DNA of 23,901 bases, taken from the IMG/VR virus record IMGVR_UViG_3300030107_002523, positions 1 to 23,901 of that record. The stretch is one strand, 5' to 3'. Shown in pieces: positions 778 through 15,370 of the stretch. A program made the position numbers and the translations under genes. Under the pieces are notes generated by a model, which had not been told where the DNA came from, ran no database searches, and saw only the letters and a program-made list of their open reading frames with translations. Source of the DNA: a virus. How positions within the stretch are numbered: position 1 is the stretch's first letter; every line of letters begins with the position of its first letter.

Positions 778-3700
778 TTAGAACATGATCATAAAGTGGA
801 AAGCATTGGTCTGTAGAATTGGTCCTTTGTTATAGGTAGCATATTTCGCACTTGCATCAATCATATTCTTAGTCAATGGATCAAGACACACCCATGAAAA
901 ACGATTAGTCCAAGTTCCTGTTAAATTGAAATAACTGTCACTATCTTGTTGTGATGAGAAAAATACAGAATATTTAGTATGTGGAAGATCTCGTTTGAAA
1001 TATACTGTTCCATATCCATTAGCAGTTGTTGTACAATAATCTATATTAGGTGTAGCCCTTATCTTGGTCATATTCTTAGGAAAATCTCCAGAAATATTAG
1101 TGAAATAACCAAATTCTCTAACTCCATAAATTGGATAATCAGCATACTGTTGTGCTTCTGGCATTGCTGTATAAAGATTACTTTGTCTAACACCATTAGG
1201 CATTGCCAATGTTCCAGTACTAATACCAGAAGCAGTAACACCACTTAAATTAGAACCATCACCCTTAAACTGAGCAGCAGTTAAAATACCAGTTACATTT
1301 AATCCCTCAAATTGACCATGCTGACCATAAACTCTCTTAAACGTTCCAATACCTGCAGTAGCAATACCACTTGCACCCAAAGTTAAATTGGATTGTCCAA
1401 TAATACTTCCACGGAATGTTACATCATTACTATCATAAGGATAAGAGAATACACATTCATTAGTACCTGCATTCTTACGATATGCAAGAACTGCATCAGC
1501 AACTTCTCCAGTAGCAAATGATGGGTTAAAATCACCCTCAAATGCTATACCACCACCCCTTTCAGAGTTTCTACCAAGATACAGATAACCCGTTCCAGAG
1601 TTATCACCCATTGCCTCAAATCCAGCAATGTTAGCATCACCAGCAAGAACAGTAGTTGTTCTATCTGTTATTCCTGAACTTTCACCAATAGATACATTAC
1701 CATCAAATCCAGTAGTTCCAATAACACCAAATGTAGAAATACCAGCAACAAATAATTGATTTAAGTTAGTACCACCCATTACGGTAATACCTGTTCCTAC
1801 TGTTAGGAAAGGTCCAGTCGTATATCCTGTACCTGCTGCAGTTCCGTGGAAAGTAACAATACCTGAACTCCAAGTAGGTCCATAAGACGTACTTAGACCC
1901 ATAAAGGTAGATAATCCAGAAACATAAAGATTGGAAGGTGTTTCTGGGTCTGAAGTAGCAAAGTTAATAGTTGAAATACCACTGGTACTATCAAATGTTC
2001 CTGTTACAGATACACCAGCACCTACAAACTGAACTAAACTTGATATACCTATAGATCCATCTCCAGTAGCAATACCTACAGTATTCGCAGGAAGTGTCTC
2101 AACACCAGAAGGAAGAATACGTCCAAACTTCTTCCACTCATTACTAGTTGTATAAACCCAACCAACAAAATCTCCATCAAAAGGAGCAGAATAGAATACT
2201 ACATCTCCTAAATTTCCTGCTTGTGTTGGTTTGGATGTTGCAACAGTGTACTTACGTGAAACTGTAGCATTACCTTGTATCTTAAGGTTATCAACTTCAA
2301 TACCTTGAGGAGAAGTAGATACAACTGGTTTGTTGAATAAAACTGGACCATCAAATTGTGATAGTACATTACCATCTGCTCCACCTTCTACACTAATTGA
2401 TCTTCTTACATTTACCTGTAATGGATCAATAATATCAAATCCACCTTCTCCACTTGATTCCTTAGAAAGTCCACCAGTGACTGCAGGAATAGGTATACCA
2501 AATGTCTCAACCTGACCTGTAGTAGAGCTAGTTTTCTTATTTCCAAAGTAGAAATTACCACTATCATCCATTCCACTATAGTTGGAAAGACCACCATCCT
2601 TTCTAAATGATTGTGAATCTAATACTTGCTGTTCATTAAGTTTAATTGTTTGAACTTGTGGAAGTGAAGTAGAATAATTACCTGGACCAAACCCAACATA
2701 TTCAAATGTATGTCCTGATGCACGAATTAAAGAGTTCCTTCTTAATTCAACAGGATGTGGTTGAATTCTCTTAACTACAGAACCATTAAGGTGTGTTTGA
2801 CGTAAGGTTCCCATTACTCCACGGAAAACCTTAATTGGATCGGATCCACCTGTTGGAGGTGTCTGCTTGATTCTTACAATCTCATTATCAATCTTCAGAT
2901 AATCACCAAGGGTGAATCTATTACTATCCTGATTAACAATTGTAATTTCATCAATTGCCAGAGTAGATACTGCAGTAGATAACGTGGTTGTAATACCTGC
3001 ATATTCAGGAACATTTCTTGTCGATGTCTTATCATTATCTATAGTAAGGTTTCCACCTTCTGGTCTAAAGGTAGGAAGATATATACTCAAATCTTCATTC
3101 TCATTGAAATCTGGATTTGTAGATCCGATACCGACCTTAGCAGTTAAACTTGTAAGTGTAGGTGCAGAATTAGTTAAGAAATAACCATTGAATATCTGTA
3201 TTTCCTTTTTATTAGCAATTCCATTAGCATTCGTAGTTGCAACACCAACAGCACCACCCATATAGAACTTATTACCAGCAATTAAACCATGAGCACCAAG
3301 AGTAGTGATAGTAGCAATACCTGTTGGATAATCATAAGTTAATGTAGAAACACCAACAACTTGACCAGTCTGAACTATAGTTGCTTCGGCACCGATGGTT
3401 GCACCAATACCAGTGGTAGTAGCAGTTCCTGTAAGACCCATCTTAATAGGATCAACAGGTGCAACACTATTTGCTGGTTTAGCAACGAATTTCTTAGGTG
3501 CTCCAACTTCAACATTTACAATCTCATATAGAGTATTAAATGTCTCGTATGGATAAGGTAAGTTATCAATATCTAAAGAATCACCAGCATTATCATAAAT
3601 CTCTTCAACTTTTACAACTGCTGGTGTGTATCCTGTTGTTGTAGCAGTTCCTGCAACAACCATAGTATTACCAATACCATATGCAGAACCACCATCCATT

Positions 3701-6700
3701 ACTTCAATTCCTGTTAAGGTTCCACTTCCATTAACAGTAATTCTTGCAGTAGCATTACTTCCACCAGTAGAATTAGCACCACCCACCAATGTAGCATTAT
3801 AAAGAGTACCTGCAGCACCATTACCATATCCAGCTCCAGATTCACTAACACTTAACTTTGTAATACGATTGAGTCCATGATCAATTGAAGTAAAGAAGGT
3901 TACTGCTGTTCCTATAGTCTGAGCAGCTCCAACCCATGAAATTGGAAGACCTTGAATCTCTGAACCAATGAAGTCAGTAATAGCAATACCAACAACAAAA
4001 TCATCAATACCTTTCTTCAGTGATTCTCTAGTAATACTCTTCTCTGGATCATTAACATTAGTTTGTCCGACAAACTCACTAAGAGCAAACGTCTTAGAAG
4101 CAGGGAAATCACTAATAGTTTGGTCTCTATTTACCCTAGGATATAAATTCTTGATTGGTTGAGCAAATCTATCACTAGTGAAAGGTGCTACTGTAGGACT
4201 ATTAGAACTATTAGTAACAGTTAATTGGTAAATACCATCTGATATATTTTCCTTATATTCCTGTAAGGTCTGAGACTGATAGACACTAAATGTTCCACCA
4301 TAAGTATTTCTTCTAAAGTATGGAAGATTAGTATCACGAATACTTGTATCATTACTAAAGGTTCCTGGATCTGTAGTTAGCCCAACACTAAATGTCTTAC
4401 TATTTGGAATACTTACAACAGTAAATGCTCCATTAAATCCAGTATTTGCAACACCAGTAGTATTAATATTACTTCTAATATTAAATAACTCAACATCACT
4501 TCCTACGATCAAATCATGAGGAAGTTCAGTAGTAACAATACCAACATTAGATGCCCAAGATGCACTAGAAACAAAACGGAAATTTCTTAATTCAGAAGAA
4601 TTAGAAAGATTTGCAGTAGTTACACTATAATACTTTTCAATTTCTGCATTTGTATCAGCAGTAGAATCTCCTGATGGTTGAAGAATAGAACCTACAAGAG
4701 GAGGTCGTGCATTAGAACTATCTTTAGGTATAACATATCTCAATCTATAAATTGTATCTGCAAGGTTTCTATTATCAGGATGTCTCTTTAAGAAAGTTCT
4801 TGCAGTTGAATCTCCAAGAGTTGTAGTACCCATTCCAACTATTGTAGAATGAATATTATTCTCTGTAGAAGCAGCAGAAACATTGATATACCAATTACTT
4901 TCACTACTATCCCACTGAACAGGGTGTCCAATATCTCCAGATTTCTTATCAGAAACTCTACTCTCAACAGTTAAAACACCACCTTTATTATTAATAGTGA
5001 TTGGGTTTAAAGAAACCGCATCATTAAGAGTTTTAGCAACTTTTAATTGTGTATTATTACTAATTCCTGTTACGGCCTCATCAATAGTTGTAATAGCATA
5101 GTAAACAATATCATTCTCTAGTCCATCAGGAATTTCACCCGTATCACTTAAAATTCTAATACTCTCACCATTTTCAAACTGATGACTAGTATTTAATGTA
5201 ATAAGATTACTTACAATACTATTAATACCTACAGCACTACGAACAACATTATATTGTTTCTTAGAACTTACTTCTGCACCAGTAGATGCAGTAGGTGGCA
5301 TAACAATCCTGGCATTAAATTCTGTTGTGATTCCAGCTTTGTCAGTTAAAAATACATTTAAAGTATCATTATTTGCTGCACCAACTCTATATCCTTGTAA
5401 TAAGTATTCAGGTAAGGTAGATTGAGTAGTTTGATTATAAAGATATAATTTAGATGTAGATGCAATACCTACTCCAGTAGCATCACTAGATTTCTTAACA
5501 TCAAGAGCATCATACTCAAAAGTTTGAGTTGTTACTTCTAAATTTTTTGGAGGAATAACATGCGAAATATATCCTCTATCATCTTGAGAGAATGCTCTCC
5601 TTCTATATCCATCTGCAGTTAATGCCTTTGCACCAAAGTTTGAGTTAGAGTTAGTAATACTTAAATCACCACCCTTAGAACTCAAGAAATGAGATGCATA
5701 TCCAATAGCAAAGCAAGAAACTACTTGAATGAATGCATCATTAGTAGCATGAATATGATAATGTGAATATTCAGGTTTATATTGAGACCTAGGATCTGTA
5801 CTTAGATTCTCATTTCCTGATGCTGTTGAATCTTTATAGGTTCCACTTGTAGTATCATACTTAACGAATGCTTTATTATCTTTCTGCAATGAAATACCCG
5901 TATACTGGGCACAAACCATTGATTTAAATCCACTTGCTTTATCTCCATCAGCATAGAGACCATTCATACCAAATACTGACCTTAAAGTACAGTTAAAGAC
6001 ATATGGAGAAGATGAAGTAACTGTATCTTGTGCAATATTTAAAGTTGCATTAGTAATTGTGGGAAGAGGATTTGCAGGAGAATTTTGAACTTGGTACTTG
6101 ATTTGAGTTGTAGATACAACATCACTAATCACATAATTACCATCATATCCAGTAACATCTACACCAGCAATTCTAATAGCAGTGTCGGTATCAAGTCCAG
6201 GAAGTACTTTATCTGTAGTAACAGTAATCTCAGTAGAAGAAACTGATCCATCACCTGCTTTTATACTACTAATTCCAACAGAAGCACCTGTTGATCCAAC
6301 AATTCTATATTCATTAACATTAGTCTGAATATCAATTGCTGCAGATGGATAGTCTGGAGAAATATCTCTTCCACTTGCTTGACCATATGCTAGACCAATC
6401 TTTTCATAATACATGTCCAGATCAGTTCTACTTGTCTTATAAGTCTGGAAGTCGTCATCAATAGTTACACCATTAACACCATCAGCAAACTCAAATACGG
6501 TTAGTTTATGATGAGAGAAATTAGGAACGAATTGGTTTGTAGTGTAATCAACATATGCTTTTCCATTTGGATTAGCATCATTAATAGTAAGTTGCCAAAA
6601 ATAACACCCACCAGTTACACGGAAGAGGGCAGATTTTTCAATCTCATTATTAGTTGGGTTAGGTACATATAAAGGTCTTATCTTTGTCTTTCTTAAATCA

Positions 6701-7131
6701 TATCCAACAATAGATACACCACGAGGTATTATTGCTCCACCGAAAACACTATTAAGTTTATAAAGTTGATTATTTGGGTTTGTTAAATCAAATGAAGTTG
6801 TACTATCAAATGGTGGAAAATCATTTGATATAGTACCATTTCTTAACCGATAGTTATTAACACCAGAAGGTATCCATCCTGGTCTATTATCTACTAAGTG
6901 CTCTCCTGGATACAGAAGAATTGTTGTTTTTTCAAATCTATCATTATCAAGTCCTTTCTGGTAGGAAAAACGTGATGCTTCTATTAATGCCCTTTGAATA
7001 GTAATGAACGGTCTTGCAAGAGAATTACCCTGATTCTCAATTGCGTCCGTCGCATCTACGTCATTTGGACTTACATAAAGAATATTCCCACGAGTGTTCT
7101 TCAGAAAGTTATCTAGACGGCTAAGACCCAT
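778..7131 (-). CDS. Very large (2117 aa) virion structural protein, probable fibre or baseplate-associated protein
   Basis: This is the largest gene of the window. Residues 1-90 (start MGLSRLDNFLKNTRGNILYV, then RPFITIQRALIEASR and TTILLYPGEHLVDNRPG) look like the entry of a pectate-lyase-type right-handed beta-helix, in which 'pf.tIq.Ai..A' and 'i.i.pG.h' are typical. The middle is thousands of bases of Thr/Ser/Gly/Val-rich beta sequence with frequent VGIST/VGIAT patterns. Around residue 1950 a GDGSNLSG linker occurs, as often seen before fibre C-terminal domains, followed by a distinct aromatic-rich C-terminal domain of about 145 residues ending HFMIMF. No catalytic S74 chaperone, lyase or sialidase residues were recognised. 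Large proteins of this type are common in marine T4-like phages and usually annotated only as structural. A late promoter lies 31 bases upstream. Host-receptor or glycan contact is inference. Confidence 0.8.
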   Translation of the reverse strand: MGLSRLDNFLKNTRGNILYVSPNDVDATDAIENQGNSLARPFITIQRALIEASRFSYQKGLDNDRFEKTTILLYPGEHLVDNRPGWIPSGVNNYRLRNGTISNDFPPFDSTTSFDLTNPNNQLYKLNSVFGGAIIPRGVSIVGYDLRKTKIRPLYVPNPTNNEIEKSALFRVTGGCYFWQLTINDANPNGKAYVDYTTNQFVPNFSHHKLTVFEFADGVNGVTIDDDFQTYKTSRTDLDMYYEKIGLAYGQASGRDISPDYPSAAIDIQTNVNEYRIVGSTGASVGISSIKAGDGSVSSTEITVTTDKVLPGLDTDTAIRIAGVDVTGYDGNYVISDVVSTTQIKYQVQNSPANPLPTITNATLNIAQDTVTSSSPYVFNCTLRSVFGMNGLYADGDKASGFKSMVCAQYTGISLQKDNKAFVKYDTTSGTYKDSTASGNENLSTDPRSQYKPEYSHYHIHATNDAFIQVVSCFAIGYASHFLSSKGGDLSITNSNSNFGAKALTADGYRRRAFSQDDRGYISHVIPPKNLEVTTQTFEYDALDVKKSSDATGVGIASTSKLYLYNQTTQSTLPEYLLQGYRVGAANNDTLNVFLTDKAGITTEFNARIVMPPTASTGAEVSSKKQYNVVRSAVGINSIVSNLITLNTSHQFENGESIRILSDTGEIPDGLENDIVYYAITTIDEAVTGISNNTQLKVAKTLNDAVSLNPITINNKGGVLTVESRVSDKKSGDIGHPVQWDSSESNWYINVSAASTENNIHSTIVGMGTTTLGDSTARTFLKRHPDNRNLADTIYRLRYVIPKDSSNARPPLVGSILQPSGDSTADTNAEIEKYYSVTTANLSNSSELRNFRFVSSASWASNVGIVTTELPHDLIVGSDVELFNIRSNINTTGVANTGFNGAFTVVSIPNSKTFSVGLTTDPGTFSNDTSIRDTNLPYFRRNTYGGTFSVYQSQTLQEYKENISDGIYQLTVTNSSNSPTVAPFTSDRFAQPIKNLYPRVNRDQTISDFPASKTFALSEFVGQTNVNDPEKSITRESLKKGIDDFVVGIAITDFIGSEIQGLPISWVGAAQTIGTAVTFFTSIDHGLNRITKLSVSESGAGYGNGAAGTLYNATLVGGANSTGGSNATARITVNGSGTLTGIEVMDGGSAYGIGNTMVVAGTATTTGYTPAVVKVEEIYDNAGDSLDIDNLPYPYETFNTLYEIVNVEVGAPKKFVAKPANSVAPVDPIKMGLTGTATTTGIGATIGAEATIVQTGQVVGVSTLTYDYPTGIATITTLGAHGLIAGNKFYMGGAVGVATTNANGIANKKEIQIFNGYFLTNSAPTLTSLTAKVGIGSTNPDFNENEDLSIYLPTFRPEGGNLTIDNDKTSTRNVPEYAGITTTLSTAVSTLAIDEITIVNQDSNRFTLGDYLKIDNEIVRIKQTPPTGGSDPIKVFRGVMGTLRQTHLNGSVVKRIQPHPVELRRNSLIRASGHTFEYVGFGPGNYSTSLPQVQTIKLNEQQVLDSQSFRKDGGLSNYSGMDDSGNFYFGNKKTSSTTGQVETFGIPIPAVTGGLSKESSGEGGFDIIDPLQVNVRRSISVEGGADGNVLSQFDGPVLFNKPVVSTSPQGIEVDNLKIQGNATVSRKYTVATSKPTQAGNLGDVVFYSAPFDGDFVGWVYTTSNEWKKFGRILPSGVETLPANTVGIATGDGSIGISSLVQFVGAGVSVTGTFDSTSGISTINFATSDPETPSNLYVSGLSTFMGLSTSYGPTWSSGIVTFHGTAAGTGYTTGPFLTVGTGITVMGGTNLNQLFVAGISTFGVIGTTGFDGNVSIGESSGITDRTTTVLAGDANIAGFEAMGDNSGTGYLYLGRNSERGGGIAFEGDFNPSFATGEVADAVLAYRKNAGTNECVFSYPYDSNDVTFRGSIIGQSNLTLGASGIATAGIGTFKRVYGQHGQFEGLNVTGILTAAQFKGDGSNLSGVTASGISTGTLAMPNGVRQSNLYTAMPEAQQYADYPIYGVREFGYFTNISGDFPKNMTKIRATPNIDYCTTTANGYGTVYFKRDLPHTKYSVFFSSQQDSDSYFNLTGTWTNRFSWVCLDPLTKNMIDASAKYATYNKGPILQTNAFHFMIMF

Positions 7132-7379: not shown

Positions 7380-7408
7380 AATATAGCATAAAATTAATTA
7401 TGTGTCAA
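7380..7408 (-). promoter_or_regulatory. Host-type sigma70 promoter: TTGACA - 17 - TATATT with extended -10
   Basis: On the minus strand TTGACA (7403-7408, exact -35 consensus) is followed after exactly 17 bases by TATATT (7380-7385, five of six matches to TATAAT). A TG dinucleotide one base before the -10 gives an extended -10 (TGCTATATT). The predicted start, about 7 bases further on, gives a leader of roughly 15 bases before the ATG at 7358. The -35 box contains the TGA stop codon of the upstream 299-residue gene. Confidence 0.65.
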
Positions 7409-8304
7409 CTACCATACGCACTAATGATACCGACTGCTGATGCAATTCCAACAATTCTATTGGTTACAATTACTTTAGAATTACGCATACCATGTTGAGC
7501 CATCTGTTTAAATCCTTTCTCAGCCTTAATGGTAGTAACAGGAGAAGATAGGGTTCCAATTCCAGTTCTAAGAGTATTGATGGTAGCAATATTAGATGCT
7601 ATATTAGCAGGTAATGCATTCGCACAAGCAGATCCACTATTAGAATAATTAATAGTCTCAGTTCCGTCTTCATCATCAGGTACAGTTACAACTCCAACAC
7701 GTGTATAAATCCATCCTATTTGAACTGAAGTAAAATTTCTAAAAAGAGAATTAGTTTTACCTGCACTTCCAGAATAAGTACCATTTTCAAATAGAACACT
7801 ACTTAAACCAGCACCAACATTAGCATTACCTGGTGTCATATTTTTATATTTTGCTCCTTCATTCATTGGAACTTCAGTATTAGTAGTGCTCTCTATTCTA
7901 GGCCACTCCCATTCCCTTGCCTGATCAGCATATAAAGGAGCTCTAGCAACATTAACAGCATTACTTCCTCTAGTGTCTCCTACAATTTCTACTGTATAAT
8001 TATCACCATAAGCAAGAATATCAGTTAATCCACTTGTATTAAAACTGGCAGTTCCTGATGCAATACCACAAGTACTACTGTTATACATTGATGTCATAGC
8101 AGCAGCAATAATTCTCTTCTGATCATTAATTAATGCAACTCTATCTAATATCTCATTATCAATATCTGTACTAATATCTTCCCACGTACTAACAATAGTA
8201 GCACCAATACCAATCTCGGTGGTCATGTCACCTACACCAGTTTCTAATCCTACTCTCTCTTGTTTTAGAAAACCTTTAGTAAATAAAATATCAGATTCAG
8301 CCAT
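7405..8304 (-). CDS. Unrecognised structural-like protein (299 aa)
   Basis: I do not recognise a named family. The protein starts MAESDILFTKGFLKQERVGL. It has a helical stretch near residues 45-75 (an acidic 'WEDISTDIDNEILDRVALINDQKRIIAAAM' type segment) and then Ser/Thr/Gly/Asn-rich, weakly charged sequence of the kind seen in virion proteins. The C-terminal part again looks helical and then beta (NSKVIVTNRIVGIASAVGII). It has no signal peptide, membrane segment or catalytic motif that I can see. A good AGGAG lies almost against the ATG and a second AGGAG lies about 18 bases upstream. It sits between the sulfotransferase and the 61-codon gene, so a virion or fibre-attachment role is only inferred from composition and position. 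Confidence 0.7.
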   Translation of the reverse strand: MAESDILFTKGFLKQERVGLETGVGDMTTEIGIGATIVSTWEDISTDIDNEILDRVALINDQKRIIAAAMTSMYNSSTCGIASGTASFNTSGLTDILAYGDNYTVEIVGDTRGSNAVNVARAPLYADQAREWEWPRIESTTNTEVPMNEGAKYKNMTPGNANVGAGLSSVLFENGTYSGSAGKTNSLFRNFTSVQIGWIYTRVGVVTVPDDEDGTETINYSNSGSACANALPANIASNIATINTLRTGIGTLSSPVTTIKAEKGFKQMAQHGMRNSKVIVTNRIVGIASAVGIISAYGS

Positions 8305-8334: not shown

Positions 8335-8880
8335 TTAAACTAACCTATAATCTTCAGTATAATAATACTTCACATAATTTCTAATTTCAGAAGTACTTGA
8401 TATTTTCTTATAATTAGGTTCCATATATTCCAAAATTAACTTCTGTCCTACTTCATTGTAAATATAATTCTTATCCAATTCTTTTACTACAAAATCCATA
8501 TCTAATACCTGTCCCATCCAATCACCAAAATTATCACCAAACCCATCTTCAAAATTCCAAAGACAAGTTTCTTCACTAATATAATCCAATTGTTTTTTAT
8601 ACCATCCTTTAGAATAGAATGGATGAGAACTTAAAGACAAATATCTTTCTAAAGGATCTCTTATCACTGCAATATGAGGAATATTTTTTACATCTAAATG
8701 TTTCTCATATAATTCTCTAGTGAAATGAGTAATTTCTGTATCCTCAATCTCTTTCCATATATCTTGTTCTGGTTCAAATCCATTCAACATTATATTCTCT
8801 TGAATAAATCTACCAGCAGTTTTAGGAATATGAATGAAAAGAAATCTCTTTCCAGTTTCTTTATGACGATAAGTAGGCAT
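8335..8880 (-). CDS. Sulfotransferase family protein (181 aa)
   Basis: The N-terminal FIHIPKTAG (residues 15-23) matches the 5'-phosphosulfate-binding loop of PAPS-dependent carbohydrate/protein sulfotransferases (P-loop-like 'HIPKTAGT' class). Residues 72-85, VIRDPLERYLSLSS, match the 3'-phosphate-binding 'RdP.eR..S' motif, with R74 and a nearby serine as expected ligands. The C-terminal YYTEDYRLV resembles the usual 'y..Dy.l' ending, so the protein is probably complete although short for the family. One difference is Arg in place of Thr after KTAG. The expected reaction is transfer of sulfate from PAPS to a hydroxyl of a glycan, lipid or tyrosine; the acceptor is unknown. Its ATG overlaps the stop of the upstream dioxygenase by one base (TAATG), so the two are probably co-translated and may act in one pathway. 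Confidence 0.85.
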   Translation of the reverse strand: MPTYRHKETGKRFLFIHIPKTAGRFIQENIMLNGFEPEQDIWKEIEDTEITHFTRELYEKHLDVKNIPHIAVIRDPLERYLSLSSHPFYSKGWYKKQLDYISEETCLWNFEDGFGDNFGDWMGQVLDMDFVVKELDKNYIYNEVGQKLILEYMEPNYKKISSTSEIRNYVKYYYTEDYRLV

Positions 8881-9467
8881 TAGATTGATTTATTAAACCA
8901 AAAAGATAGAACATATCTGGTACCAGACTCAACTTCACTCACATGATGAAGATATTCTCTATTAGAAAAAATTAATAACTTTCCTGCTTTCGGTTTTACA
9001 TCATACCATACTTTATCATCTAAAGTATCGAATTGAGTATGTCCTCCAACATAGTCATCATTTAAATAAAGAAAAGATGCAAGAACATTGGGACTAAACA
9101 TTTCAGATTTATCATAATGTGGTTTCATAAAAGTTCCTTTTGGCCATCTTATGACACCACAATAATCTAATTGTATATCCTTATGAAATGTTTTACAAAG
9201 TTGAGTTACCTTCTTAATTACGTTAGCAAAAAGTTCATTAGATGTCAATTTAATATCGATAGGAGATACATCTCCACCCAAATAGATTGCACCATAATCA
9301 CCATCAGGTTCTGGTATATCAGGACCATAACTCAAACTTTCATCAGAATTTGAATGAGTAACTGCTTCTAAGAATGTATCCTCCTTTTGATCTCCATGAA
9401 GATTGATAAATGGTTTACACAAAGAAGGATTTAAAAATTCCTCTTCAACATAAATTAATTTTTTCAT
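8880..9467 (-). CDS. 2-oxoglutarate/Fe(II)-dependent dioxygenase, prolyl-4-hydroxylase type (copy 2, 195 aa)
   Basis: The protein carries the iron-binding HxD of the double-stranded beta-helix fold (MKPHYDKS; H117, D119). The distal histidine lies in LHHVSEVESGTRYVLSFWF (H175 preferred over H174), and R184 is nine residues later, as expected for binding the 2-oxoglutarate carboxylate. ASFLYLNDDYVGGHTQF and PKAGKLLIFSN are typical core strands of phage and bacterial 2OG-Fe(II) oxygenases. It is a clear paralogue of the next gene upstream: both start MKKLIY-EE and share the RWP-GTFMKPH core. It has a longer insertion at residues 30-75 that may set substrate choice. The start codon overlaps the stop of the other copy by four bases (ATGA). 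Reaction: hydroxylation of an unknown substrate, with peptidyl proline or another residue the family precedent. Confidence 0.88.
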   Translation of the reverse strand: MKKLIYVEEEFLNPSLCKPFINLHGDQKEDTFLEAVTHSNSDESLSYGPDIPEPDGDYGAIYLGGDVSPIDIKLTSNELFANVIKKVTQLCKTFHKDIQLDYCGVIRWPKGTFMKPHYDKSEMFSPNVLASFLYLNDDYVGGHTQFDTLDDKVWYDVKPKAGKLLIFSNREYLHHVSEVESGTRYVLSFWFNKSI

Positions 9468-9961
9468 TTTTGATTATACCAAATACTAAGAGCAAATCTT
9501 TCTCCACCTTCAACCTGAGTAACATGATGTTTATAGATTGAATTAGAAAATACAAGTAGTTTTCCTTTTTCTGGTTTTATTTCATGTTCTTCAAATCCAG
9601 TATAACCACCAGTAAAATCATCATTCAAATAAAGAACTGCTGCAAATAAATCAGGATCTTGTCCTGGTCTTGATGGATCAATATGGGGTTTCATAAAAGT
9701 ACCCTCTGGCCATCTAACAACAGAAGCATAATCAATAATAACCCTATCATCAAAGGTTTTACAAAGATTTGTTACTTTATCAACTACATTATTCTCTTGT
9801 GAATCAAAATAAATCCCATCTAAGGTAGTAAGAAAAGTATTACCACCCCTACCTGGATTTCCATAAGGAATTTCTTCTTTATTATCTTTAGAAAGTTTAA
9901 TTAAATCATCACACTCTTGAGGAGAAATAAAATTCTCCTCAAAGTAAATCAATTTTTTCAT
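9464..9961 (-). CDS. 2-oxoglutarate/Fe(II)-dependent dioxygenase, prolyl-4-hydroxylase type (copy 1, 165 aa)
   Basis: All expected ligands are visible: H93 and D95 (MKPHIDPS), the distal histidine H146 in KHHVTQVEGGERFALSIWY, and R155 for 2-oxoglutarate. The core strands AAVLYLNDDFTGGYTGFE and PEKGKLLVFSN match the family. At 165 residues it is essentially a minimal single-domain enzyme. It is the first gene of a tightly packed trio (dioxygenase, dioxygenase, sulfotransferase) with 4-base and 1-base overlaps. It starts six bases after the stop of the fibre-like 333-residue gene, without an obvious ribosome-binding site, so it probably relies on translational coupling. Many marine T4-like phages carry such enzymes; their substrates are largely unknown. 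A fibre protein encoded alongside is one possible target. Confidence 0.88.
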   Translation of the reverse strand: MKKLIYFEENFISPQECDDLIKLSKDNKEEIPYGNPGRGGNTFLTTLDGIYFDSQENNVVDKVTNLCKTFDDRVIIDYASVVRWPEGTFMKPHIDPSRPGQDPDLFAAVLYLNDDFTGGYTGFEEHEIKPEKGKLLVFSNSIYKHHVTQVEGGERFALSIWYNQK

Positions 9962-9967
9962 AAGAGA

Positions 9968-10969
9968 TCATAATATTTGAGTATTTCTTGGACCTTCGTA
10001 TCTTGGATCCTTAAAGTTTGGATTATCAACATCATCCACCTTACCTGGATTAAAGTTAGGATCTGGATAATCTTTCCAAGTATCTCCTTCATATTCAGTA
10101 ATGAGAGGATTTATATCTTTTCTTTCTCCATACACAGAATAGAAACAATCAATAGGACCACCAGCAGAATTCTTTACTATTATCTTTTTACCCCATTCAA
10201 TCTTATCCACAAAAAGTTCTTGATAACTTTGATAAGGGGTTAAATGAACTGAAAGACTATCGGTATATACCAAATCTTTCCAATAATAAGGGAGTTCAAT
10301 TATATTATTACCATTACTCAATCTTCCTCTAATATAAACACCAACCTCTGGTCCCTCAATACATGCATAACGAAGTCTATGTCCATCTCCTTTAGTAGGA
10401 TGCTTAATGTCAAAAGGTTTTGGTTTACCATCAGCAGCACTAAATCTAGCAGACAAATCACCAATACCACCACCATTGAAATATGCATTTCCACCAACCC
10501 ATAAAGGATGTCCTCCTGTTGCCATAAAGGTAGGAGCATTAACAGTAAGAACTCCCGTATTAACACTACCCAAAGATTTTACCTTTAGACTAGTTAAAAT
10601 TCCACCACCACCTCTTTCTAATGTGATATTGGAAACATCAGATCCTGTTCCACGGAAAACTGTATAATTATCTTTGGTAGTTACTAATGCAACACCATTA
10701 TGAGGGGTATTTAAACCAGACGATTCTGTAGGTATTAAATCAAACCAAGGTGCTAATTTTCCTTCACTATCTTCATTCTCCACATAGTTATCTTCATAAG
10801 TATAATCCATATCTGCTTTACCTGTAAACGTTCCATAGTTTACAAAGGTTAGGGGATAACTGGCAGGTTTTGGTTTATATGGATAAACCTTTTCAGGTGA
10901 AGGCTTTGTTGTATTAGATGTAGAATGACGAGTTTCTTCTCCCGTTATCTTGTTTATTTCCATTGTCAT
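9968..10969 (-). CDS. Fibre-like structural protein with HP..LEGPE..V..RGRL module (333 aa)
   Basis: The N-terminal 80 residues are Pro/Lys/Tyr-rich and probably extended. Residues 90-180 are Gly-rich beta sequence. Residues 185-286 form a module also present in the next gene upstream, with the common frame HP-K-G--L--AC-EGPE-GV--RGRL, then LP-YW-DLV and a conserved GG-PIDC-Y--(Y/F)-ERKD ending. I associate this module with the C-terminal parts of adhesin and fibre-like proteins of phages and marine bacteria. About 45 Asp/Pro/Asn-rich residues follow it here. A good GAGGAG (10978-10983) lies eight bases before the ATG, overlapping the end of the previous gene. A tail-fibre or baseplate-decoration role is inferred. 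Confidence 0.75.
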   Translation of the reverse strand: MTMEINKITGEETRHSTSNTTKPSPEKVYPYKPKPASYPLTFVNYGTFTGKADMDYTYEDNYVENEDSEGKLAPWFDLIPTESSGLNTPHNGVALVTTKDNYTVFRGTGSDVSNITLERGGGGILTSLKVKSLGSVNTGVLTVNAPTFMATGGHPLWVGGNAYFNGGGIGDLSARFSAADGKPKPFDIKHPTKGDGHRLRYACIEGPEVGVYIRGRLSNGNNIIELPYYWKDLVYTDSLSVHLTPYQSYQELFVDKIEWGKKIIVKNSAGGPIDCFYSVYGERKDINPLITEYEGDTWKDYPDPNFNPGKVDDVDNPNFKDPRYEGPRNTQIL

Positions 10970-10974
10970 GGTAA

Positions 10975-11673
10975 TTACTCCTCAATTTTAAGTCTTGGAA
11001 CATCTTTCCTTTCGGCAAAGATATGATAATAACAATCAATTGGCATTCCACCTTTAGATTGTAGAAATACCTTATTTTGACCTACTCGTTTGATAATAAT
11101 ATCTTGGTGAGCTCCAATGGGTTGAAGTTGAACTGTAATACTTAACTCTTCTACCAAATCTACCCAATACTCAGGAAGATATATTACAGAAGTTCCTGTT
11201 AGTCTACCTCGACAAAAAACTCCATTCTCTGGACCTTCTAGACAAGCATGAATTAACTTTCTTCCAGGTTTACTTGGGTGAGGAATGACGAAGTTTTTAA
11301 CTCTCGCCATTATAGTCTCAGCATAAATGACTTTCGACTTTATGGTTCGAACTGTTAATAATTCATCCACCTTCAAGTAGCTTCTTATTCTAGCATAAGT
11401 TCTCACAAAAAGCGAATAAAAAGGAACAGGATGTGTTTCTCCTTGCATATCACTATTCTGTGTTTCAGCTATCATCACTGTACCCAATTGATTTTCTTTT
11501 ATGGGTGTTTTAACTTGATGATCATAATATTGAGTAGGATCTCCTGTAACTGAAGGGCCTTCGGTATAGGATGTTCCTCGAACCTCATCATCTCCCCTAC
11601 CTAAGATTTCAGGAAGTCCATTTCCAACAAATAATCTTTTTCCGACTGTTACGTCGTCCATCTCCATTGACAT
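10975..11673 (-). CDS. Fibre/baseplate-like protein sharing the same C-terminal module (232 aa)
   Basis: Residues 127-225 carry the same module as the 333-residue neighbour: VIPHPSKPGRKLIHACLEGP, then GV-CRGRL, LPEYWVDLV, and GGMPIDCYYHIFAERKD. The N-terminal 125 residues are unrelated to the neighbour and contain a probable short beta-repeat (about 100-125, LKVDELLTVRTIKSKVIYAE), as in fibre shafts. The start is well supported by a strong AGGGAGGT (11681-11688) seven bases upstream, overlapping the TAG of the previous gene. It follows the gp5-like and spike-like genes directly, so it may be attached to the baseplate or hub. No enzyme motif was seen. Confidence 0.72.
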   Translation of the reverse strand: MSMEMDDVTVGKRLFVGNGLPEILGRGDDEVRGTSYTEGPSVTGDPTQYYDHQVKTPIKENQLGTVMIAETQNSDMQGETHPVPFYSLFVRTYARIRSYLKVDELLTVRTIKSKVIYAETIMARVKNFVIPHPSKPGRKLIHACLEGPENGVFCRGRLTGTSVIYLPEYWVDLVEELSITVQLQPIGAHQDIIIKRVGQNKVFLQSKGGMPIDCYYHIFAERKDVPRLKIEE

Positions 11674-11680
11674 AATTTAT

Positions 11681-11688
11681 ACCTCCCT
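11681..11688 (-). promoter_or_regulatory. Strong Shine-Dalgarno AGGGAGGT
   Basis: This near-perfect ribosome-binding site lies seven bases before the ATG at 11673 and overlaps the stop codon of the upstream gene. It decides the start of the 232-residue gene and is stronger than most sites in this window, where many genes depend on stop/start overlaps. Confidence 0.75.
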
Positions 11689-12397
11689 AAAACGGAAACT
11701 TAAATGGGAAACCACCCAATCCCTGCTGGAAAGAAGGGATACTAGGTTTAGGTGGGAATGCATTTTCTGGTTTTTCAGCTCCTCTATTTGCAACCAATTC
11801 AGAAGTATCTTCTCCTCCAAGTTTAGAGGGTTTAGATGCAGATTGAGCACCTAAGAATTTATAAACACCTGCATAAAATTTAAGAGATGTCTGAGCAGAA
11901 ACTTGAAATGTACCAGAACTAACGAATCTTACTGATGCTTTTCCATCAAGACTAAGATTCTTTGTTTTAATATTTACAGCTTCATTTGAAACTATATTAA
12001 CTACTCCTCTATCATTAGAAGGACCATGAACATTTAAATCAAAATCTAATGCCTCCATTCTAATTCTACCATTAGTTGCTTTAATGACAATATCGCCATT
12101 TAAAGCCTCAAGAATCATAGCAGGTTCTTTACCACCTCTATTATCACCACATTTGATTTGATAAACTCCAGGACATCTATTGGTAGTCCATCCAGGTCTC
12201 TGTCCATTCTTATCCATTGTCATATAATGGATTTTATCGGAACCCTGCAACATTACATCAGATATACACTCACCTTTAAAACCAGCAGTGGTTGTGTGAA
12301 TATGCCCGAATCTTATTTCTCCATCATTATTTCCGTACTGAAGATTATAATAATTCTCAGTATCGGGATTATAATCAGGATTTAATTGATCTGCCAT
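11687..12397 (-). CDS. Spike-like beta-repeat baseplate protein (gp5 C-terminal/VgrG-needle-like, 236 aa)
   Basis: Residues 92-185 hold short repeated strands of the kind 'GDI.I.A.NGRI.M.AL...' (EALNGDIVIKATNGRIRMEA, followed by FDLNVHG, VNIVSN, VNIKTKNLSLDGKASVRF). This is the pattern of the trimeric beta-helix needle of T4 gp5 and of VgrG spikes. The N-terminal 90 residues are Asn/Asp/Tyr-rich and contain GHIHTTTAGFKG. The C-terminus is Pro/Phe/Gly-rich, ending GLGGFPFKFPF. The gene begins exactly where the gp5-like gene ends (TAA followed by ATG), so the two are translationally linked. My reading is that the membrane-piercing needle, fused to gp5 in T4, is a separate polypeptide here. An alternative is another trimeric baseplate decoration. 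Confidence 0.65.
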   Translation of the reverse strand: MADQLNPDYNPDTENYYNLQYGNNDGEIRFGHIHTTTAGFKGECISDVMLQGSDKIHYMTMDKNGQRPGWTTNRCPGVYQIKCGDNRGGKEPAMILEALNGDIVIKATNGRIRMEALDFDLNVHGPSNDRGVVNIVSNEAVNIKTKNLSLDGKASVRFVSSGTFQVSAQTSLKFYAGVYKFLGAQSASKPSKLGGEDTSELVANRGAEKPENAFPPKPSIPSFQQGLGGFPFKFPF

Positions 12398-15370
12398 TTA
12401 AGTTACCTTTCCTACACAATCTATTACCTGAAGAACAGGAGTACCTTCCAATCTATCAAGATTTCCTTCTTCATCGGATCCAATTCTTAATGGTTCAAAT
12501 ACAGGAATAAGTTTTGCATTTGTTCCCACTTCAGATTCCATCCATAATCTTGGAACCCTATTAAATCCTTGCCCTTTGGATATTATATTCACTTTAGTTA
12601 CTGTTCCAAAAGGTCCGAATTTAGGTTCCAATACAGCACCATTATTATATTTAATAAAGATAGTGTCATTTGGATCATAATTAATTCCAGGATTATCAAT
12701 GTAAACATCTACAAGTTGAAGAATTACAGGATAATCACCTAAAGCACTAGCAGGATCATTGCTTGAAATTTTAGGTGCAGTATCTAAAGGAAGAGGAGTA
12801 GTAAAACTACCTCCAGCAATTACTTTTCCAGTTCCACATAAAGTTTGAACTGTAATTCCATCTTTCACAATATCTACACAAGTTCCTGGTGGTAATTCAA
12901 CAGTATCTCCTGGATTAACATTCACAACTGTTCCTGGAGAATAAGGGAAATAACCTCCCAGTTGAGTTATATCAAAGAAATTGCCAGCATTTACATCTAC
13001 ATCAGAATCTGTATCTCCAGTTCCTGATCCATTAATAATAAACACTTGACCAACTTCATATCCAGAACCTCCCTGAGATATAGTTGCTTGATTTATTATA
13101 CCATTTTCTGAAATATAATCAACCTCAAAATCTATACCATTAGAATTTTCAACTTTAGTACCAACACCACTACCACTCTCAGGATAGGTAGAACCTCCTG
13201 TAGATAAATCAAATGCACTTACTCCTCCATTATCATCTATTTCAGTTATTATTCCTTGAGCAGGTAATCCAGGCAAAGGAGGTGGAGGTACACTAGTTAT
13301 AAATTCTTGACCAATTGTTGTAATACCAACTCCACCACCAATACCATATGGAGTATCACTTATTGTTATTGTACCACCAGTATTAGTTCCACCAAGAGGA
13401 TCATATTCAATAATAGTAGTACCTGAAGGGAAATTAATATCTGAGGGTATGTTTATAGGAATAACTGATTGACCAGGATTTATAGATCCTTCAGGGTTAG
13501 TCACATTATCAATAACATTACTACCTGTAGTTACATCGCCAATAAATCCACCAGTTCCCAAACCTGCTTGATGATTTTCATTATCTAAAGTATTTAAAAT
13601 TCCTGTAGGTTGGTAATTTACTATCGTATTGCCAGGATCTGAAAATATCTGTCCATTTCCTCCTTTAGAACCATCAAAAATATTAGTATATCCAACTCCA
13701 GGAGAAACAGAAACAACTTTTACTACCTGTCCCCATTTATTAATTACTGATATTAAATTTGCACCACCACCTTTACCACATTCATCTATAATCTTTACCT
13801 TTGGTGGAGTTTTATATCCCCAACCAGATCCACCACTGGAACTATCTTTTACATATGCACCACCATTCTTAGGTCCTGCTAAAGGATCCCATCTATTGTA
13901 TATTAAATCAACTCCTATTACTTGTCCATATCCATTCACGATAGCATTTCCTTCTGCTCCACCTGCTAAGGGATGAACTACTTCATCCTTTATAAAAAGA
14001 ACTTTAGGTGGTCCACAACTAGTCGGTCCAGAATTACAAGCAGAGTCTTCACTTTCTATAGCATCTAGTACACCACCCAAAGCACCATGAAACTCACCCA
14101 ATACTCCTCCACCATTCCATGCAGACCAAGATTCAGTAGGAGGACATTCTGGTTGTGGATCACATCCAAAGAACTCAACAATACTAGTTACAGTATCTAA
14201 TGCACCTCTAGGATCTCCACCTGCCATACCAAATAAAGAATCAGCATTACCAAAAGCAGGAAGATGACTAACAGAATTACCAATAAAATCTTGTATACCA
14301 CCTGCTGCTGTTCCCAATATTCCTACAACAGGTCCAAGTATCTTATCTAAAAGTGAACTTACAAAACTTTTAGCAGCACAAGTGGGAGAACTCACAAATT
14401 TCTCCACTACATCATTCAATAATTCTCTAACTATACCACACATCATATCAACAACACCATTCATCACACAAGTAACAGTATTGGTAACTTCTTCCTGTTT
14501 TTGTTGTAATGCAGGTCTTTCATTTGGCATTAATAAAGAAACCGCAGGTGTTATACTATTATTAACTTTCTTCAATACCAGAGCATTAACTCTTGACATT
14601 ATACTTTTTACAAATCCACATATAGCCTTCTCTGCTCTGTCAATTGCTCTCTCCATATTATTCTTTTCACCTGCTGCAGCATAAGGAAATAAAGATGCAG
14701 CCTTCTTCATCCTATTAATATCCCGCAATAACAAAGACATAACACCTTGAATACCCTGCATCTCAGTGTTTGCTGCTTCGCAGGAATTCTGCATTGTCAT
14801 TTCATCAGCACCATCATTTGCCTGAAATATATCAGCAATTGATCCCACTCTAGGATTCATTCCCTCCAATGCAGGAAGAGACCTAGGTGCTGTTGCCATA
14901 TTCTGTGGATATACAGGAACAGGTTCACTCTTTCCTTTGTATCCTGTCCTAGATTCAAATCCTTTCTCTGGATCTTTTCCCTTTAAAATCGTTTGAGAAT
15001 TATTTCCAAACGCACCCATAATTACGGGTTGTTGTGCCTCAAATCCATCCTTAAAAAATCCCATCACAAAAGCACCTTGGCATAGGTTAGGAGACATTTT
15101 AGATCCCCTATGACCACTACCAGCAGTTACTGGATAGAGAACCTCTGCCATTGGTAACTCTTCATCTGGCTCTTCTTCTTTACTGAAGGTTTGGTTGCCA
15201 AAAATTCTTACCCTATAACGATACCCCCATCCAGGATCATCTTCCTCTGAAGATTGTATCGCAGAAGGATTGGAATTATCTCTCCATGTAGAATCATCAG
15301 CAATCTGACCTATCCACCAATAAAAACCATTGGTTCCAAGAGCCTGACTATCAAATAAACTATTATTCAT
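12398..15370 (-). CDS. gp5-like baseplate hub protein without lysozyme domain (990 aa)
   Basis: Residues 15-130 look like the OB-fold of T4 gp5: FYWWIGQIADD, RYRVRIFG, an 'LPMAEVLYPVT' strand, then GAFVMGFFKDGFEAQQPVIM, matching the order W-VG-V, RVRV-G, LPW--V--P-T, G--V-G-F-D-----IV-G of gp5. Residues about 180-375 are helical with several Cys and Ala. From about 410 on the protein is Gly/Pro/Cys-rich beta sequence with modules of the type 'PKVKI...G.GA...V.N..G.V..V.V...G.GYT', including a PPPPLPGLP stretch near residue 690. No T4-lysozyme-like sequence is visible, although T4 gp5 has one in its centre. It lies directly after the gp27-like gene and one small gene, as expected for the hub partner. 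Its ATG overlaps the preceding stop (TAATG). Confidence 0.8.
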   Translation of the reverse strand: MNNSLFDSQALGTNGFYWWIGQIADDSTWRDNSNPSAIQSSEEDDPGWGYRYRVRIFGNQTFSKEEEPDEELPMAEVLYPVTAGSGHRGSKMSPNLCQGAFVMGFFKDGFEAQQPVIMGAFGNNSQTILKGKDPEKGFESRTGYKGKSEPVPVYPQNMATAPRSLPALEGMNPRVGSIADIFQANDGADEMTMQNSCEAANTEMQGIQGVMSLLLRDINRMKKAASLFPYAAAGEKNNMERAIDRAEKAICGFVKSIMSRVNALVLKKVNNSITPAVSLLMPNERPALQQKQEEVTNTVTCVMNGVVDMMCGIVRELLNDVVEKFVSSPTCAAKSFVSSLLDKILGPVVGILGTAAGGIQDFIGNSVSHLPAFGNADSLFGMAGGDPRGALDTVTSIVEFFGCDPQPECPPTESWSAWNGGGVLGEFHGALGGVLDAIESEDSACNSGPTSCGPPKVLFIKDEVVHPLAGGAEGNAIVNGYGQVIGVDLIYNRWDPLAGPKNGGAYVKDSSSGGSGWGYKTPPKVKIIDECGKGGGANLISVINKWGQVVKVVSVSPGVGYTNIFDGSKGGNGQIFSDPGNTIVNYQPTGILNTLDNENHQAGLGTGGFIGDVTTGSNVIDNVTNPEGSINPGQSVIPINIPSDINFPSGTTIIEYDPLGGTNTGGTITISDTPYGIGGGVGITTIGQEFITSVPPPPLPGLPAQGIITEIDDNGGVSAFDLSTGGSTYPESGSGVGTKVENSNGIDFEVDYISENGIINQATISQGGSGYEVGQVFIINGSGTGDTDSDVDVNAGNFFDITQLGGYFPYSPGTVVNVNPGDTVELPPGTCVDIVKDGITVQTLCGTGKVIAGGSFTTPLPLDTAPKISSNDPASALGDYPVILQLVDVYIDNPGINYDPNDTIFIKYNNGAVLEPKFGPFGTVTKVNIISKGQGFNRVPRLWMESEVGTNAKLIPVFEPLRIGSDEEGNLDRLEGTPVLQVIDCVGKVT

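Follow-up and report, generated by a model that had tools for sequence, protein, structure and literature searches.

The window, by which we mean the whole 23.9-kb stretch of viral DNA that was analysed, is a fragment of a T4-like marine phage. All of the genes described here lie on its minus strand. DIOX1 (9464..9961) encodes a 165-aa, prolyl-hydroxylase-like 2OG-Fe(II) dioxygenase, assigned from PF13640, its facial triad and its predicted fold. It is followed by its 195-aa paralogue DIOX2 (8880..9467; PF13640 and alignment) and by ST (8335..8880), a 181-aa PAPS-type sulfotransferase by PF03567, conserved residues and predicted fold. DIOX1 and DIOX2 overlap by 4 bases (9464-9467), and DIOX2 and ST share a single base (8880). 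Upstream of this trio lie a gp5-like baseplate hub/tail lysozyme gene (12398..15370) and then three small genes that are fibre-like or of unknown function. These encode a 236-aa protein of the same block (11687..12397; phrog_26118, unknown function), a 232-aa fibre-domain protein (10975..11673) and its 333-aa paralogue (9968..10969), which lies directly upstream of DIOX1 and which we propose as the dioxygenase substrate. The 232-aa and 333-aa proteins have a C-terminal fibre domain in common, and this kinship together with their position suggests that they are fibre components. The 333-aa protein also carries a conserved proline-rich C-terminal tail, DYPDPNFNPGKVDDVDNPNFKDPRYEGPRNTQIL (9968..10072, including the stop codon), which its 232-aa paralogue lacks. 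On the other side of the trio, a 299-aa protein without a family match (7405..8304, directly downstream of ST) and a 61-aa DUF7294 protein separate ST from a 2,117-aa long tail fibre (778..7131; phrog_529). In relatives that match the neighbouring genes at 96-100% identity, the 299-aa protein reaches only 84-88%, indicating that it evolves faster than its surroundings.

A sequence-only reading of this DNA had described three intact enzyme genes, joined by 4-base and 1-base overlaps and set amid fibre genes. Open reading frames and Pfam matches bore out the genes, their coordinates and their overlaps, and the position was likewise confirmed by gp5 and the small fibre genes on one side and the phrog_529 fibre on the other. 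Because the same trio recurs in four relative loci (L004-L007), its arrangement is not an accident of assembly. Among named DNA, the closest to the tail genes of the window was a single-cell record of a marine virus, which aligned with a third of the query at 72.5% identity; other single-cell records and cyanophages came next. The string TATAAATA, which we take to be the late-promoter motif, occurred twice in the window, fewer times than expected by chance, and not within the block; a scan for sigma-70-type promoters and terminators likewise gave no more matches than shuffled sequence.

The two dioxygenases matched PF13640 (2OG-FeII_Oxy_3) with E-values of 1.4e-13 and 2.1e-14 (54.7 and 52 bits), about twice the curated cut-off of 27 bits. 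In DIOX1, the facial triad consists of H93, D95 and H145, with R155 as the 2OG-binding residue. Across an alignment of 138 dioxygenases that takes in both window enzymes, the HxD...H...R pattern was kept in nearly all rows: both histidines were present in all 138, the aspartate in 136 (glutamate in 2) and the arginine in 134 (lysine in 4). The enzyme identities and intact-looking active sites claimed from the sequence alone thus stood up, both to the Pfam search and to the check for lost ligand residues in relatives. When the dioxygenase profile was compared with the PDB, it matched prolyl 3-hydroxylase 1 (4e-10), the Bacillus anthracis P4H, the Pseudomonas putida prolyl hydroxylase (4iw3) and PHD2. 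The best Foldseek match of the DIOX1 model (pLDDT 81) was the chlorovirus collagen prolyl hydroxylase vCPH (1.5e-9); P. putida P4H (PPHD, also in its EF-Tu-bound form), B. anthracis P4H, PHD2 and P3H1 were among the other top matches, and most of the matches listed for this model were prolyl hydroxylases. The enzymes resemble peptidyl-prolyl hydroxylases both in sequence and in predicted fold, and we regard DIOX1 and DIOX2 as candidate peptidyl-proline hydroxylases. They are like PBCV-1 vCPH, PPHD and the B. anthracis P4H in profile, predicted fold and HxD...H...R pattern, but the phage enzymes are shorter (165-205 aa), duplicated and joined by an overlap to a fibre gene. In contrast to the collagen prolyl hydroxylase system, there are no collagen repeats in the window; a collagen-like substrate was considered and rejected, as the 17 window ORFs examined had no G-x-y run longer than 4 units. 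Two of the PHROG families matched by these enzymes carry the names "DNA endonuclease" and "DNA endonuclease V", which recur in RefSeq phage records and which the 2OG match and the intact triad contradict.

DIOX1 and DIOX2 are 51% identical by alignment (42-43% in local comparison among near-identical relatives), and in relatives the dioxygenase is single at some loci and paired at others. Two single dioxygenases (L123 and L126) hold both a segment otherwise found only in DIOX1 (PYGDESRGG type) and one otherwise found only in DIOX2 (a stretch ending YLGG), which suggests that the pair may have arisen by duplication followed by complementary loss.

ST matched PF03567 (Sulfotransfer_2) at 6.1e-6 and 27 bits, against a cut-off of 22 bits, over profile positions 9-102 of 252, i.e., the N-terminal half only; its match to the family phrog_3347 was stronger (1.7e-18). 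In 73 aligned rows, H17, P19, T21, G23, Y58, R74, P76 and W121 were invariant, and position 52 was His in 72. An HxH pair is important in heparan sulfate 2-O-sulfotransferase; at position 54, two residues after H52, the window protein has Thr where 66 of the 73 rows have His. A PDB sequence search with ST gave weak matches only, and the best Foldseek match of its model (pLDDT 90) was modest (E 0.025), while a second-look fold comparison returned sulfotransferases in nearly all rows listed (Z up to 9.1, rmsd 3.4). From sequence and model, its class is clear: ST has a PAPS-type sulfotransferase fold, with catalysis predicted. The model resembles glycan, small-molecule and tyrosine sulfotransferases alike, and the fold search does not single out an acceptor type; "Galactose-3-O-sulfotransferase" is a phrog_3347 label only. 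The phrog_3347 proteins of P-SSM7 and S-T4 that bear this label belong to the same family as ST (38% and 27% identity, respectively). Compared with such relatives, the window protein is smaller, sits at a locus other than the common gp46-like one and has Thr54 instead of the common His. A contig scan for bacterial relatives of ST found 31 pattern stretches, none of which was confirmed at that sensitivity.

A search with DIOX2 yielded 39 loci, and wherever an upstream gene was present, it encoded a small fibre-domain protein. Merging of the samples, with two of the 39 loci (L111 and L115) left out because the tailed fibre gene was not recognised in them, gave 120 related contigs in which one or more dioxygenases follow one type of small fibre-domain gene. 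The junction is usually a 4-base overlap, and sometimes a nucleotidyltransferase-like gene lies in between. Where seen (L014, L020, L021, L023 and L116), this intervening gene is of the CTP_transf_like, heptose-1-phosphate adenylyltransferase-like kind; at L014 and L116, another dioxygenase, this one of PF13759 type, is also present downstream. The fibre proteins end in a tail with the consensus ..DYPDPN[FY]xP...[YF]xDPx[YF]xGPPNTxT. YPDPN was present in 25 of 26 distinct upstream tails in the sample chosen by dioxygenase, and these 26 tails contain on average 5.7 prolines in their last 36 aa, compared to 2.4 in 130 distinct tails chosen by fibre domain (rank test p 1.4e-14, in a test that ignores relatedness). 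The mean of 6.15 prolines in the merged tail sample is inflated, as that sample was selected for the motif.

To approach the association from the tail, we scanned viral contigs for DNA encoding DYPDPN[FY]xP, which gave at least 119 stretches, and read 115 loci. Among the matches listed, all 115 were C-termini of a fibre-domain protein, and a dioxygenase lay within 1.2 kb in 78 of the 85 loci with at least 500 bases downstream, 11 of the 78 also having ST; in the 30 loci with less room, the start of a dioxygenase was visible in 11. A counter-sample chosen by fibre domain alone (80 of 586 loci kept, 156 ORFs) contained no DYPDPN tails, its tails being of the DYPG type, other or absent. No dioxygenase of this type was found in these 80 loci, and a loose threshold brought up three loci with weak, differently built matches. 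A different type of dioxygenase was observed behind DYPG-tailed fibre genes at L285, L294 and L316.

These counts are not independent, because the association mostly reflects one descent: for each of the 109 DPN-tailed fibre domains, the closest in identity is another DPN-tailed domain. The link between tail and dioxygenase thus appears to be mainly one shared descent in which the two were kept together, and physical adjacency could explain their staying together as well as function. The tail was found without the dioxygenase on at least seven contigs from at least two lineages; on the seven tail-only contigs, two of them 19-24 kb long, the dioxygenase profile found no match elsewhere on the fragment. 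The 333-aa fibre protein of the window is itself a mosaic, with residues ~237-266 nearer the DYPG type and its start and tail of the DPN type. This mosaic middle indicates that at least one swap did not part the tail from the dioxygenase, and it accounts for the fibre-domain tree, which grouped the window domain with 22 that have either a DYPG tail or none. General swapping of a portable tail among fibre domains was considered and dropped, as none of the 109 DPN rows was nearer in identity to a DYPG row. As to the phages concerned, psbA was clear on one of 22 contigs tested, with a weak partial match on another, and the pelagiphage marker CsgG was found on none of the 22. Given the clear psbA, at least one contig with dioxygenase and tail is probably from a cyanophage.

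The cyanophage records examined commonly have 2OG oxygenases in the stretch from gp5 to the fibres. The clusters of P-SSM7, ACG-2014b, S-RIM50 and ACG-2014g occupy the same gp5-fibre island and belong to the same superfamily as the window dioxygenases, and P-SSM7 has a sulfotransferase directly behind gp5. However, the oxygenases of cultured cyanophages are at best ~34% identical to DIOX1, and by annotation in the records examined, none of them immediately follows a small fibre-domain gene. The related dioxygenases of cultured cyanophages cluster in the island without a DYPDPN tail, and this tail was not found in six cultured or single-cell records examined, whose tails differ.

The sulfotransferase proved less constant. 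A search with ST gave six loci, four with the trio at the same place (L004-L007) and two behind a gp46-like gene (named from its sequence), where one had a more distant dioxygenase together with ST and the other had ST alone. A profile search extended this to 123 loci, of which 80 were kept and their locus types counted by hand. The fibre locus accounted for 19 of these 80, each of them immediately preceded by a dioxygenase, and the other 61 were elsewhere. The gene directly upstream in the latter (taken from the first ST where a locus has two) was gp46-like in 31, of a nucleotide-sugar class in 20, a dioxygenase in 5 and an unknown small protein in 5. The nucleotide-sugar class, named from representatives, comprises UDP-glucose-dehydrogenase-like, epimerase and nucleotidyltransferase genes. 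Tandem ST genes were seen at L014, L030, L031, L075, L088 and L089. Viewed from the dioxygenase side, ST followed the fibre-locus dioxygenases in 19 of the 88 merged contigs that extend 150 bases or more past the last dioxygenase, and in 16 of 75 when at least 300 bases were required. At the gp46-like locus, all five loci with a distant dioxygenase had ST as the next gene downstream; they form one clade. On the ST tree (72 rows), the dioxygenase-adjacent rows need three label changes, at least two of them forced by supported branches, and the dioxygenase-ST pair of the gp46 locus is nested among dioxygenase-free rows. Adjacency of dioxygenase and ST has arisen more than once, one case consisting of five near relatives. 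Comparing tails with and without ST (13 vs. 51 distinct tails, 2 shared), we saw no clear difference in S/T/Y/P/N/D/K counts. The two shared tails are identical sequences that occur both with and without ST and thus give no sign of sulfation of the tail.

The sequence-only reading had proposed hydroxylation followed by sulfation and had asked for co-occurrence of the families beyond chance. The dioxygenase does co-occur with the small fibre gene in this way; its link to ST is weaker, with no dioxygenase directly upstream in 56 of the 80 ST-family loci kept from 123. The fibre context and the enzymes of the two-step proposal stood, but its obligatory form is not supported, since ST is optional and the tails are the same with and without it.

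Several explanations for this arrangement can be weighed against one another. Were the dioxygenases to make hydroxyls on the fibre protein and ST to sulfate those same hydroxyls, the conserved overlapping block of L004-L007, the repeated origin of dioxygenase-ST adjacency and the five-of-five pairing at the gp46-like locus would be expected; the frequent absence of each enzyme from the other's loci and the indifference of the tail to ST make this very unlikely. A variant in which ST, in some lineages only, sulfates the hydroxylated tail directly or via a sugar, giving sulfated virion fibres, strikes us as the least probable of the readings considered. Alternatively, all three enzymes may modify host or phage glycans, as part of an island for surface modification that would prevent readsorption or superinfection and be kept by the fibre genes since receptor and fibre change together. 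Nucleotide-sugar genes upstream of ST in 20 of 61 non-fibre loci, the nucleotidyltransferase between fibre gene and dioxygenase at five loci, and the S-T4 sulfotransferase adjoining a NolO-like carbamoyltransferase near fibres all fit such an island. We nonetheless consider it unlikely for the trio as a whole, as the dioxygenases resemble protein hydroxylases rather than small-molecule or lipid types, and they track the fibre gene, not sugar genes.

It is also conceivable, if rather unlikely, that the dioxygenases have host proteins (EF-Tu, for example) as substrates, serve in DNA repair or draw down 2-oxoglutarate, the locus being a mere parking place. A close structural relative (4iw3) hydroxylates EF-Tu, and excerpts of earlier work propose that genes of Syn9 with a prolyl-4-hydroxylase domain may serve in DNA repair (PMC2984593, a review) and tie 2OG oxygenases to 2OG and nitrogen stress (PMC3037559). 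Against a parking place stand the constant location right after a single type of fibre gene, with a 4-base overlap, and the lack of the dioxygenase behind the 156 related fibre-domain ORFs. That the genes are neutral passengers of a hypervariable gp5-fibre island, linked by common descent without shared function, would suit the many different genes held by this island in cultured cyanophages and the coming and going of ST, but appears improbable given the ligand residues kept across 138 dioxygenases and 73 sulfotransferases and the conserved overlapping junctions.

We favour the explanation that DIOX1 and DIOX2 hydroxylate the tail of the adjacent fibre protein and that ST is an optional, probably glycan-directed add-on, to which we give a probability of only about 0.4. 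Its observed part comprises gene order, family membership, ligand residues, predicted folds and co-occurrence, and the link of the dioxygenase to the fibre gene is stronger than that to ST. As to substrate, residue, timing and benefit, DIOX1 and DIOX2 would be phage peptidyl-hydroxylases of the prolyl-hydroxylase type, with the product of the gene just upstream, the small fibre protein, as their substrate late in infection. The modified residues would most likely be prolines (or Asp/Asn) in the conserved proline-rich tail of that protein, and the modification might make the tail stiffer or tune its contacts. ST would be a separate PAPS-dependent enzyme, probably carbohydrate-directed, that was added behind the dioxygenases in some lineages and modifies a glycan of the virion or the host surface; a glycan is a likelier acceptor than the tail because the wider ST family keeps company with nucleotide-sugar genes.

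In the open-licence literature, no paper came up that assigns a particular fibre substrate to a prolyl hydroxylase or sulfotransferase of a phage. LPS is described as a cyanophage receptor in PMC4390846, and a cyanophage cluster of sugar and hydroxylase genes in PMC7824862. An excerpt of PMC9301287 calls the use of viral prolyl 4-hydroxylases "cryptic" and mentions collagen in viral tail fibres, and part of PMC7029224 served as further background. Published views differ on what the many 2OG dioxygenases of marine T4-like phages are for. The tying of one dioxygenase subfamily to one proline-rich fibre tail offers a concrete candidate substrate and turns that puzzle into a testable question. If the proposal is right, it would mean hydroxylation of a tailed-phage adhesin, by a chemistry that needs oxygen inside the infected cell.
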